Assembly (NCBI RefSeq): GCF_900176435.1
Contig: NZ_FWYE01000001.1
Location: 372,001-436,000 of the forward strand
DNA: 64,000 nucleotides
Source of the DNA: Picrophilus oshimae DSM 9789
GTDB taxonomy: Archaea; Thermoplasmatota; Thermoplasmata; Thermoplasmatales; Thermoplasmataceae
Reading direction: 5' to 3'
The first letter of the stretch is position 1; each line of letters opens with the position of its first letter. The notes beneath the pieces were generated by a model, which worked only from the letters and a program-made list of their open reading frames with translations, was not told the DNA's origin and made no database searches. Made by a program: the position numbers and the translations under genes. This document shows, one piece after another, positions 6,936 to 10,940 of the stretch.

Positions 6936-7040
6936 GTTTGTTAATTATAATATTGGATAAGATTTTTGTTAATTATATAGTGCGATAATCAATAAGAAAA
7001 CTTTAAATAATCATTATTGCTAACACCTTAAGGAAAAGAG

Positions 7041-7988
7041 ATGAACGAAATAATCAGTTCACTTGAAGAGGAAAAGCCTCCAGGTAGTCCACTTTTATCA
7101 GGAGCCTACCTCAGAGGTATAATTGACAGTGATAGGGTTTTTGTTAAATATGAGGGTGCAAATCCAACTGGCACGCAGAAGGACAGAATTTCTGAGAACC
7201 ATGTTAAGAGGGCGCTGTCTCTTGGAATGAAAACTGTATCTGTTGCAACCTGCGGCAATTACGGGGCATCGATATCGTATTATTCAAGAAAGTATAACAT
7301 CGATGCTGTTATAGGAATACCTGAGTACTATTCAAATGTTAGATCAAAGGAGATGGTTGCAAACGGTTCAAGGGTAATAAAATATCCTTACAAGTACGAG
7401 GAGATCGTTGAATTGTTCCATAAGATCTCAGAGAGGAATGGATGGTATGATGCAAGCCCCGGTTCAAGGAATGATGTTTACGATATTATAGGATATTCAA
7501 TAATAGCAATAGAGATATATAAACAGCTTGGCCATTCCCCGGATTACATAGCCGTGCCCGTTGGCAATGGAACAACCCTTGCAGGCATATACTATGGCTT
7601 CAGGGCCCTTTACGATTATGGATACGCCTCAAATGTCCCGAGATTCATTGCAGCAAGCACCTCTGGCGGTAATCCAATAGTAGAATCATACATGAATGGT
7701 TCCAAAAAAATAATGGAATTAAGCGAGGAAAAAATAAGGGAAACAAACGTAAATGAGCCCCTGGTGGCTTACCGCTCATACGATGGGCAAAAGGCCCTTG
7801 ATGCACTCTATGATACGGACGGTTACGCATTCTATGTAAATGATGATGAAATGATAAATGCATCACATTTAATGAAGATGAATGGACTTTCTGTTTTGCC
7901 CGCATCGGCATCTGCGGCCGTTGCCGCGGCGAGGGTATTAAAAAATAACGATGAGTGTGTTATAGTTATAACAGGTCGTGATCACTAA
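7041..7988 (+). CDS. Threonine synthase-like PLP enzyme (fold type II)
   Basis: 315 residues of the tryptophan-synthase-beta/threonine-synthase superfamily. The Schiff-base lysine is in NPTGTQKDR (about K47), the substrate/PLP loop is TCGNYGASISYYSR, and the phosphate-binding glycine loop is VPVGNGTTLAGIYYG (residues 174-188). It is shorter than classical threonine synthase, lacking the N-terminal extension, so cysteate synthase, a dehydratase, or another beta-replacement or elimination enzyme is equally possible. A TATA-like TTTAAATAA lies near 7002, and AAGGA precedes the ATG. It is the first gene of a tight operon: its stop TAA shares one base with the ATG of the DUF1611 gene, and the MurL-like gene follows. 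The substrate is unknown. Confidence 0.8.
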   Translation: MNEIISSLEEEKPPGSPLLSGAYLRGIIDSDRVFVKYEGANPTGTQKDRISENHVKRALSLGMKTVSVATCGNYGASISYYSRKYNIDAVIGIPEYYSNVRSKEMVANGSRVIKYPYKYEEIVELFHKISERNGWYDASPGSRNDVYDIIGYSIIAIEIYKQLGHSPDYIAVPVGNGTTLAGIYYGFRALYDYGYASNVPRFIAASTSGGNPIVESYMNGSKKIMELSEEKIRETNVNEPLVAYRSYDGQKALDALYDTDGYAFYVNDDEMINASHLMKMNGLSVLPASASAAVAAARVLKNNDECVIVITGRDH

Positions 7989-9016
7989 TGGATAGGGCAA
8001 CTTTACTGGCTGAGGGTTTTTTTACAACAACCTATGGAAAGACCGCAAATGGTCTTGTAAGATACAGTAAAAGGTACGATATAACATCTGTTATAGATTC
8101 AAGGTACCATGGCATGGATGCCGGCATGCTTTTAATGGGCAGGCCAAATAATATTCCTGTTATATCATCAATAAAGGAGGCACACAACCTTGGATCGGAT
8201 ACAATGATAATAGGTGTTGCAACTGATGGCGGTTTTATACCAAACGAGTACAGAAAGTACATAAAAGAGGCAATATCAATGGGAATGAACATTGTAAGCG
8301 GACTGCATGAATACCTGAGCGATGACCCGGAGTTTAGAAAGCTTGCCAAGATATACAATGTTAAATTAATCGATGTAAGAAAGATGTTTGAATCATATAA
8401 ATACTCGTTCACCGGAAGAATAAAGGATGTAAAATCAAAAAAGATAGCGGTTCTTGGTACCGATAGCGCAATAGGAAAAAGAACGACTGCCATATACCTG
8501 AACGAGGCCATAAACAATGCAGGTAAAAAATCAGTAATGATAGGCACAGGGCAAACATCATGGATGCAGGGATTTAAGTACACCGTTGTTATGGACTCGA
8601 TAATAAACGATTTTGTTGCCGGCTCTCTTGAATACATAACATTAAAGGCCTGGGATGAGGAAAGGCCGGATTACATGTTCCTTGAGGGCCAGGGCTCGAT
8701 AATACATCCGGCTTATCCTGGAGGCTTTGAGATCATAGGTGCACTTAGACCGGATGCAATAATACTTCAGCATGCACCAAAGAGGAAATATTACGATGGC
8801 TTCCCGGAATTTGAGATACCGCCTCTTGAAAGATACATAAAGGTTCTTGAGTTAATATCAGATAAACCTGTTATAGCGATATCACTGAACAGGGAAAATA
8901 TGACAGACGATGAGGTCCAGTCTGAAAAGGAAAGCCTGGAAAAAAGGTATAATATACCGGTCTTTGATCCACTCAAAGAATTTGAGCGCATGAGAGAGGT
9001 AATTGCAAGCCTTTAA
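7988..9016 (+). CDS. DUF1611 P-loop protein (possible N-acyl amino acid metabolism)
   Basis: 342 residues. The N-terminal Rossmann-like half includes SRYHGMDAGMLLMGRPN and GVATDGGFIP. The C-terminal half is a P-loop domain with Walker A GTDSAIGKRTTAIYL near residue 157, then MIGTGQTSWMQGFKY and LEGQGSIIHPAYPGG, all typical of DUF1611. A bacterial DUF1611 member, DgcN, has been described as a D-glutamate N-acetyltransferase, and DUF1611 genes often sit beside dipeptide epimerases. That makes acyl-amino-acid or D-amino-acid metabolism plausible here, but the substrate is not determined by the sequence. The gene is one base into the preceding PLP-enzyme gene and 8 bases before the MurL-like gene. 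Confidence 0.82.
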   Translation: MDRATLLAEGFFTTTYGKTANGLVRYSKRYDITSVIDSRYHGMDAGMLLMGRPNNIPVISSIKEAHNLGSDTMIIGVATDGGFIPNEYRKYIKEAISMGMNIVSGLHEYLSDDPEFRKLAKIYNVKLIDVRKMFESYKYSFTGRIKDVKSKKIAVLGTDSAIGKRTTAIYLNEAINNAGKKSVMIGTGQTSWMQGFKYTVVMDSIINDFVAGSLEYITLKAWDEERPDYMFLEGQGSIIHPAYPGGFEIIGALRPDAIILQHAPKRKYYDGFPEFEIPPLERYIKVLELISDKPVIAISLNRENMTDDEVQSEKESLEKRYNIPVFDPLKEFERMREVIASL

Positions 9017-9024
9017 GTGTTTTT

Positions 9025-10437
9025 ATGTACGCTGAAAGTGTAATTTCTTTTAAAAATATCACTGTTTCCGTATTAAATATAACAAGTAGAAGGATATACG
9101 GAAGCATAGGCATAGAAAATGCTGATGGTTCAAGGGATGATTTTAAGATTATTTTTAGCTACGATGATGACATAGACGTTGATGAGTCAACAGCAGGGCT
9201 TATACTAACAATGCCTGTTATAAACTATGCCTACTTCTCAAGGGAAATCACATTGAACTTTGATTTGTCATACGAGGATAAAAGTTTAATAGAAAGATTC
9301 ATAAAAATAAACAATCATGAGGTTTTTATAAACAAAATTATAAACCGCAGGTATGATTTTATATTAAATGAATACATACCAGATGATTCTGATATAAATG
9401 AAAAGAATGCCAGTGGAATAACAGTTTTAAATGCAAATGCAAGGCCAAATAATAAGGGATTTGAAACCAATAAAAACAGGGTTGCCATAATGTCTTCTGG
9501 GGGCAAGGAAAGCCTTCTTGGCTATGGCATTTTAAACGAGATTGGTGCTGAAACCTACGCATTTTACTTTGAAGAATCCGGTTCACACTGGCTGACCGCA
9601 AAAACAGCCTATGATTACTATTCAAGGCATTTCAAGAACGTTTTTAAGATCTGGTCAAATGTGGATAGATTCTATAAGTTTATGAATCTAAAATTAAAAA
9701 TTATTGATAAATCAAAAATTAATATAAGGGCAGACGACTATCCAATACAGGTCTTTATATTTCCTGTATATATATTCTCGATGATACCATTTATGAAAAA
9801 ATACGGCATTGGAAACATAGTTATGGGGGATGAATTCGATGATCCCAGGCAGATGAAGTTATTCCACGGTATGAAGTATTACTATGGTATATTCGATCAA
9901 ACCGTTGATTTCAACGATATGATGACCGATTATTTTAAATTAACTGGCAAAGACATAGATGTTTATTCAATAGTTTATCCAATAACAGGAAGCCTTGAGG
10001 AAAAAATACTAATGGAAAGGTACCATGATCTGTTTTTGAACCAGAGATCATGCCATTCATGCCATATAAAGGACGGAAGGATAGTTCCATGCGGTAAATG
10101 CACAAAATGCCTTGGCATACTGCTCTTCATTCTTGCAAACAACGGCGACCCAGGGGAGATAGGGTATTCCAATAACGATATAAGATTGCTTCCAAGAAGG
10201 TTAAAAAAGGCAAGGCTGAGGCTTGATCCTGATGAGATAAAATATACAGAATCAAGAATAGGCATAATTAATGATAATGACTATAATCATGTTGCAGGCA
10301 TTCACATAATGCCATATGAAAATAGTATATTATCAAAGGTTCCAGAGATGTACAGGGATAATATATTTAAAATATTCAATGAGTACAGTTCAGGAATTTA
10401 CAAATTAAACAATAATAAATGGGAGAGGATATCCTAA
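9025..10437 (+). CDS. PP-loop ATPase of MurL-like type
   Basis: 470 residues. A PP-loop SSGGKESLLGYGIL lies at about residues 156-169, the ATP-pyrophosphatase signature. It is followed by FYFEESGSHWLTAKTAYDYY, then RADDYPIQVFIFPVYIFS and GNIVMGDEFDD, and a cysteine cluster CHSCHIKDGRIVPCGKCTKC near residue 346 that may bind a metal. The order resembles, from memory, the MurL family (ATP-dependent UDP-MurNAc-L-Ala-L-Glu epimerase). This organism lacks murein, so the substrate must differ; a glutamyl or peptide carboxylate activated with ATP is my inference. The first 150 residues are beta-rich and unrecognised. It is the last gene of the three-gene operon and overlaps the convergent tsr3 end by 4 bases. 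Confidence 0.72.
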   Translation: MYAESVISFKNITVSVLNITSRRIYGSIGIENADGSRDDFKIIFSYDDDIDVDESTAGLILTMPVINYAYFSREITLNFDLSYEDKSLIERFIKINNHEVFINKIINRRYDFILNEYIPDDSDINEKNASGITVLNANARPNNKGFETNKNRVAIMSSGGKESLLGYGILNEIGAETYAFYFEESGSHWLTAKTAYDYYSRHFKNVFKIWSNVDRFYKFMNLKLKIIDKSKINIRADDYPIQVFIFPVYIFSMIPFMKKYGIGNIVMGDEFDDPRQMKLFHGMKYYYGIFDQTVDFNDMMTDYFKLTGKDIDVYSIVYPITGSLEEKILMERYHDLFLNQRSCHSCHIKDGRIVPCGKCTKCLGILLFILANNGDPGEIGYSNNDIRLLPRRLKKARLRLDPDEIKYTESRIGIINDNDYNHVAGIHIMPYENSILSKVPEMYRDNIFKIFNEYSSGIYKLNNNKWERIS

Positions 10438-10940
10438 AAGTACATATCCTCTGTTTTTTTTATATCCTCCTGGGTTCTGCATCTTTCATAATCAGATAAT
10501 GGCATCATGTTTACACTTAAAAATGTCTGCGCCCATGAAAATTTTTCAAGAATCTTAGAAGCCTCATCATGCCTGCCAAGAATGTAAAGAGCGGCGGCAG
10601 CGGCCTCAACCGATGATAGTTTTCCAGGCCTTCCATAGTTCACGGGGTTTACAGGCAGCAGCAATGGGAGCCTTCTTGCATTCAATGGCCTTATTCTTGA
10701 TATATCATTTATTGAATTCCATGAGGTTTCAAGAATGCAGAGGCCATAGGCACTGTAAAGCCCTGAATCTTTGTTATTTAGATATATTTCGCTGTACGGT
10801 GTTAAAACGATCTTTTTACCGATTGCTTTTAATGGTATGTGCCTTGCGAGGCTAAAGCGCTCAAGCTTCCTCATTGTTGCCTTTTTTGGATCGTCCATGT
10901 GGAAATCCACGTAATATATCACGGTATTCAAATATGTCAT
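10434..10940 (-). CDS. tsr3: Small-subunit rRNA aminocarboxypropyltransferase Tsr3
   Basis: Transfers the 3-amino-3-carboxypropyl group of S-adenosylmethionine to a modified uridine in helix 31 of the small-subunit rRNA, a ribosome maturation step shared by archaea and eukaryotes. 168 residues. Conserved blocks are ILETSWNSI (the family's D/E-C/T-SWN site), ARRLPLLLPVNPVNYGRPGK, LSSVEAAAAALYILG and FSWAQTFLSVN. Length and block order match the Tsr3/DUF367 family. It lies between the MurL-like operon (convergent) and divergent pyrG. The start ATG at 10940 looks right. Confidence 0.93.
   Translation of the reverse strand: MTYLNTVIYYVDFHMDDPKKATMRKLERFSLARHIPLKAIGKKIVLTPYSEIYLNNKDSGLYSAYGLCILETSWNSINDISRIRPLNARRLPLLLPVNPVNYGRPGKLSSVEAAAAALYILGRHDEASKILEKFSWAQTFLSVNMMPLSDYERCRTQEDIKKTEDMYF

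Follow-up and report, generated by a model that had tools for sequence, protein, structure and literature searches.

MurL is a glutamate epimerase of the bacterial cell wall, and the route of DgcN and DgcA was reported by Yu et al. in 2023 (cited in PMC12363236) to run through N-acetyl-glutamate. MurL requires ATP and Mg and forms AMP (PMC5808125, PMC8788868). The DgcN-DgcA route converts D-glutamate to L-glutamate (PMC10845958), and the adenylation of a carboxylate by QueC and Cap9 leads to an amide (PMC13279940). Here, we describe a three-gene operon of the archaeon Picrophilus oshimae DSM 9789 in which a DgcN-like protein is encoded directly upstream of a PP-loop protein that, of three families tested, is nearest to MurL by profile.

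The operon lies in a 64,000-nucleotide stretch of DNA (the window; NZ_FWYE01000001.1, positions 372,001 to 436,000), and the tight unit that was originally predicted is confirmed, with its reading frames as described. PALP, a fold-type II PLP enzyme and threonine-synthase-like paralog of the PRK06381 type (7041-7988, + strand; Pfam and NCBIfam matches), is followed by a DgcN-like DUF1611 protein, a putative amino-acid N-acyltransferase (7988-9016, + strand; Pfam and NCBIfam matches), and by gene 3, whose product is a PP-loop ATP-pyrophosphatase that resembles MurL and QueC but belongs to no named family (9025-10437, + strand; called from profiles and predicted fold). The PALP stop codon overlaps the DUF1611 start by 1 base (TAATG); between DUF1611 and gene 3 lie 8 bases (9017-9024). 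About 36 bases 5' of the PALP start codon, the sequence ACTTTAAATA (7000..7009, + strand) is a possible TATA element, placed as archaeal promoters typically are. Because rpiA on the 5' side and tsr3 on the 3' side are both on the other strand, the unit is limited to PALP, DUF1611, and gene 3, and RpiA and Tsr3 were rejected as operon members. The Tsr3 (DUF367) gene (10434-10940, opposite strand) shares 4 bases with the 3' end of gene 3 and is a conserved neighbor, convergent with gene 3 in 56 of 80 loci.

The gene order is widely conserved in wall-less acidophilic archaea and certain relatives. Gene 3 was present in 24 of the 150 Thermoplasmata genomes that made up our class sample; DUF1611 adjoined it upstream in all 24, and thus the grouping is not due to chance. 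PALP was adjacent in 23, the exception (G089) carrying PALP on another contig. When the scan was widened to one genome per species, 80 gene 3 loci emerged, among them those of Ferroplasma, Acidiplasma, Thermoplasma, Cuniculiplasma, Bathyarchaeota, and one Myxococcales bin. Of the 79 loci with sequence 5' of gene 3, 74 had DUF1611 immediately upstream (76 when two with overlapping predicted starts are counted); PALP came before DUF1611 in 57 of the 69 loci where this could be assessed. Every sampled genome of the window's own family carries gene 3, which also reaches other archaea, and several lineages have gene 3 with DUF1611 but without an adjacent PALP. Neighbor conservation among relatives, a check proposed at the outset, is seen. 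A gene 3 that belonged to another PP-loop family and kept this company in one genome only would speak against a common system; the fold is indeed QueC-like (see below), but the three genes co-occur widely, and the proposal is not refuted on these grounds. A D-aminoacyl-tRNA deacylase gene (PF04414) lies just 5' of PALP on the same strand in 39 loci and is not directly upstream of PALP in this window. One genome contains a partial, stop-ridden second copy of gene 3 (L025/L026, G148:C43), probably a pseudogene, in addition to an intact copy elsewhere. The Myxococcales bin (L095) carries gene 3 without DUF1611, convergent with a GNAT gene like one found beside archaeal copies, and represents either transfer to bacteria or mis-binning.

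The family to which gene 3 belongs had to be sought beyond standard models, as the protein matched nothing over any Pfam or NCBIfam cut-off, received no PADLOC family assignment, and gave no matches in PDB sequence searches; tblastn against plasmids returned only noise. An AlphaFold2 model computed from a 41-homolog alignment had a pLDDT of 93.8, and Foldseek matched it to QatC over its full length and then to Cap9 and QueC. We are confident from the model that gene 3 folds as a QueC/QatC-type PP-loop ATP-pyrophosphatase, with a Cys4 zinc site predicted from its motif, and MurL-like proteins appear to sit inside the same (QueC) clan. The homolog alignment places the PP-loop at SSGGKES (residues 157-163; 9493..9513, + strand), in which S158, G160, and K161 are invariant among the 41 homologs. 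Invariant too are C343, C356, C359, and C362 of QRSCHSC ... PCGKCTKC (10042..10110, + strand), a probable zinc site that includes a MurL-type CxxCxKC. GGK(D/E)S and CxxCxKC are common to gene 3 and MurL and absent from QueC and QatC, which have SGG(L/M)DS and CxxCxSC (or P/Q), although the contrast was drawn post hoc and two of six MurL sequences carry Arg instead of Lys.

Profile comparison gave a similar picture. The MurL reference set comprised the protein of Xanthomonas sacchari (encoded beside murD, and located via Myxococcota homologs and a plasmid record) and five relatives. By hhalign, gene 3 scored 58-74 against MurL, varying with column settings, 43-47 against QueC (8e-6, significant), and 35 against QatC; column-permuted controls reached no more than 29 for the MurL and QueC profiles and up to 27 for QatC, and the permuted null for the MurL score of 58-74 peaked at 22. 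Between references, QatC and QueC scored 90, and MurL and QueC scored 24-26. We conclude from these profiles that MurL is the nearest of the three families to gene 3. Profile kinship is confined to the PP-loop/zinc core, as the N- and C-terminal parts of gene 3 showed no profile similarity to MurL; an N-terminal resemblance seen by eye failed profile alignment and was dropped. Individual gene 3 homologs match the MurL model NF041275 at 6e-4 over the zinc region, the best at 18 bits against a curated cut-off of 700 and the 836 bits of a true MurL, and the window protein gave no match to that model. Nor does the locus contain murD2 or peptidoglycan-synthesis neighbors, the neighbors being PALP, DUF1611, and Tsr3. 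Thus, the predicted MurL resemblance holds for the PP-loop, the cysteine cluster, and the ranking of profiles, but gene 3 falls far short of MurL proper. The gathering score of QueC PF06508 was likewise not reached, with weak matches in 4 of 20 gene 3 members (best, 0.053). We note that MurL-like genes of 300-323 bits, annotated as hypothetical and with no mur genes adjacent, occur on Pseudonocardia plasmids (L113-L115).

DUF1611 offers a second line of evidence. The protein matches PF07755 (2.5e-63) and PF17396 (1.3e-29), both over the gathering score, and consists of a Rossmann-like N domain and a P-loop domain (GTDSAIGKRTT). Its predicted membership in the DgcN family is supported, yet it scores 179 bits against the DgcN model NF041892, below the cut-off of 480, and acyltransferase activity is therefore only assumed. 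DUF1611 was found in 83 of the 150 Thermoplasmata genomes, and we looked in the same sample for its DgcA-like partner, defined as a strong match to enolase-superfamily L-Ala-D/L-Glu epimerase or N-acetyl-Glu (DgcA-like) racemase. Such an epimerase was present in 53 of 59 genomes with DUF1611 and no gene 3 versus 6 of 24 with gene 3 (Fisher 1e-8), a value that overstates the evidence for replacement because few evolutionary events, with one gene 3-linked DUF1611 clade, underlie it. In the tree, that clade (100/99) is sister to a group containing epimerase-linked DUF1611s. Genomes lacking DUF1611 had the epimerase in 9 of 67 cases, and either gene 3 or the epimerase was found in 77 of 83 genomes with DUF1611 versus those same 9 of 67 without. 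Four of the gene 3-containing exceptions belong to the window's own family (f1), and their epimerases group apart from the others, in a clade shared with sequences of genomes that lack DUF1611; when these four are set aside, the enolase-type epimerase is kept in 2 of 24 gene 3 genomes, both of family f14.

Epimerase and DUF1611 are also neighbors in genomes that lack gene 3. In family f2, which belongs to the same taxonomic order but has no gene 3, and in several other families, DUF1611 lies near an enolase-superfamily epimerase, the distance being within ~3 kb in ~16 genomes; most of these pairs are convergent rather than operonic, often with one gene between. Family f9 genomes have a second DUF1611 copy that is convergent with an enolase-type epimerase, and the single gene between them is, by eye, of GHMP-kinase type. 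In P. oshimae, the DgcA-type partner is absent from the operon, and the genome's only close homolog sits in a murein-scavenging cluster. The glutamate racemase MurI was not found in gene 3 genomes. Because its distribution is complementary to that of the epimerases, gene 3 is probably a DgcA substitute, a candidate ATP-driven N-acyl-glutamate epimerase. The original prediction of a D-amino acid or N-acyl-glutamate pathway is in part strengthened, as the complementary pattern supports a role of the D/L-glutamate type.

It had also been argued that in archaea without murein both enzymes would act on another substrate, a premise that is weakened because this genome encodes the scavenging of murein fragments. 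Outside the window, a muropeptide-scavenging cluster (L176, G000:C4:20500-26500) contains genes for a beta-lactamase-type hydrolase, a NagZ-type GH3, an L-Ala-D/L-Glu epimerase, and a NamZ exo-muramidase. Comparable islands occur in three related genomes, where MurQ-like SIS, NlpC/P60, and S13 carboxypeptidase genes lie beside the epimerase. More generally, the epimerases of the four exceptional f1 genomes adjoin genes for NagZ-type GH3, NamZ, MurQ-like SIS, NlpC/P60, or D-Ala-D-Ala carboxypeptidase, and the genomes with NamZ are precisely these four plus three of family f11 with the same epimerase clade.

We tentatively favor an account in which the operon is an N-acyl-glutamate-type epimerization route with gene 3 in the place of DgcA. 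The substrate would be glutamate or a close relative, which the DgcN-like DUF1611 protein would N-acylate. Gene 3 would then adenylate the alpha-carboxylate with ATP, acidifying C-alpha such that the center could invert, and would hydrolyze the adenylate with release of AMP and PPi; it would thereby be the ATP-driven counterpart of DgcA, the enolase-type racemase of the DgcN-DgcA pathway. PALP may supply or consume a related amino acid; the part first suggested for it, a lyase at the start or end of the pathway, is conjectural, and some lineages lack PALP at the locus. The likelier direction would be the clearing of D-glutamate to L-glutamate, for example from scavenged bacterial murein, and synthesis of a D-compound is the alternative. 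Disposal is favored because a D-aminoacyl-tRNA deacylase gene often adjoins and because some genomes carry murein-scavenging genes, both circumstantial. The deacylase is common in archaea, and thus its neighborhood is weak evidence. Possible, but to be held with more reserve, is the wider claim that gene 3 represents a new archaeal family of ATP-dependent epimerases, sister to MurL in the QueC clan, that takes free N-acyl-glutamate, or an N-acyl amino acid like it, as substrate, has replaced DgcA beside a DgcN-like acyltransferase, and gives archaea without glutamate racemase an ATP-driven D/L-glutamate route. If gene 3 is an epimerase, MurL chemistry extends beyond the making of cell walls, and the DgcA racemase has an alternative that is driven by energy. 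Moreover, the link to murein scavenging makes it testable whether wall-less archaea feed on D-amino acids of bacterial walls.

The main rival to epimerization is amide ligation, in which gene 3, like QueC, would join its adenylated carboxylate to ammonia or an amine, giving for instance an N-acyl-glutamine-type product from substrate supplied by DUF1611 and PALP. Ligation fits the Foldseek ranking, with QatC, Cap9, and QueC as best matches, the significant hhalign alignment to QueC, and the chemistry of QueC and Cap9, which adenylate carboxylates to just this end (PMC13279940). MurL is nearer by profile score, however, the QueC/QatC motifs (SGGLDS and CxxCxSC or P/Q) differ from those of gene 3, and ligation leaves the complementary pattern with the epimerases unexplained. 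We therefore regard a ligase as doubtful.

Alternatively, PALP might define a small pathway on a substrate other than glutamate, perhaps related to threonine or a hydroxy-amino acid, with DUF1611 and gene 3 tailoring a carboxylate or an amine. In family f9 (L148-L155), the PALP subfamily is found in a cluster with a paralogous DUF1611 copy and a GNAT gene, without gene 3. Moreover, PALP (PF00291, 5e-51) scores 90 bits against the ThrC model TIGR00260, under the cut-off of 167, and another PALP-family gene of the genome scores 258 and is the canonical ThrC; PALP is thus, by sequence, a paralog distinct from the housekeeping threonine synthase. The occurrence of gene 3 and DUF1611 without an adjacent PALP in several lineages nonetheless indicates that PALP is not the core, and a PALP-defined pathway is unlikely. 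A further reading, that PALP is a true threonine synthase, the second of the genome, grouped with housekeeping genes that share no pathway, would agree with its NCBIfam label (NF004996, threonine synthase; 471 bits, cut-off 266) and with its nearest solved structures, which are threonine synthases, but the scores against TIGR00260 and the fact that the pair is conserved over long range in different families make a second synthase very unlikely. Finally, RNA modification by gene 3, whether thiolation or another tRNA modification, would suit the PP-loop fold and the weak Foldseek matches to TtuA, NcsA, and ThiI, but these have E > 0.02, the genome has a true QueC gene at another locus, and the link to metabolic genes is strict, such that this function is extremely unlikely.

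PALP meets the family cut-off of PRK06381-type threonine synthase but is not the canonical ThrC and is linked to DUF1611. Gene 3 shares with QueC, QatC, and Cap9 the overall predicted fold and the position of the zinc site, and QatC likewise has N- and C-terminal extensions; profile scores are lower, motif residues differ, and the operon contains neither 7-deazaguanine genes nor Qat partners. Gene 3 differs from MurL (NF041275) in lacking detectable kinship outside the core, a murD2 neighbor, murein synthesis, and a score near the cut-off, but resembles it in the GGK(D/E)S PP-loop, CxxCxKC, the core profile score (58-74), and length (MurL, 451 amino acids; gene 3, 470). Unlike the DgcN-DgcA pathway of D-glutamate catabolism, the operon has a putative ATP-dependent PP-loop protein for the enolase-type racemase, an extra PLP gene, and a DUF1611 protein below the DgcN cut-off. 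Like that pathway, however, it pairs a DUF1611 protein with a proposed N-acyl-glutamate epimerase, and related Thermoplasmata have DUF1611s that are linked to epimerases.
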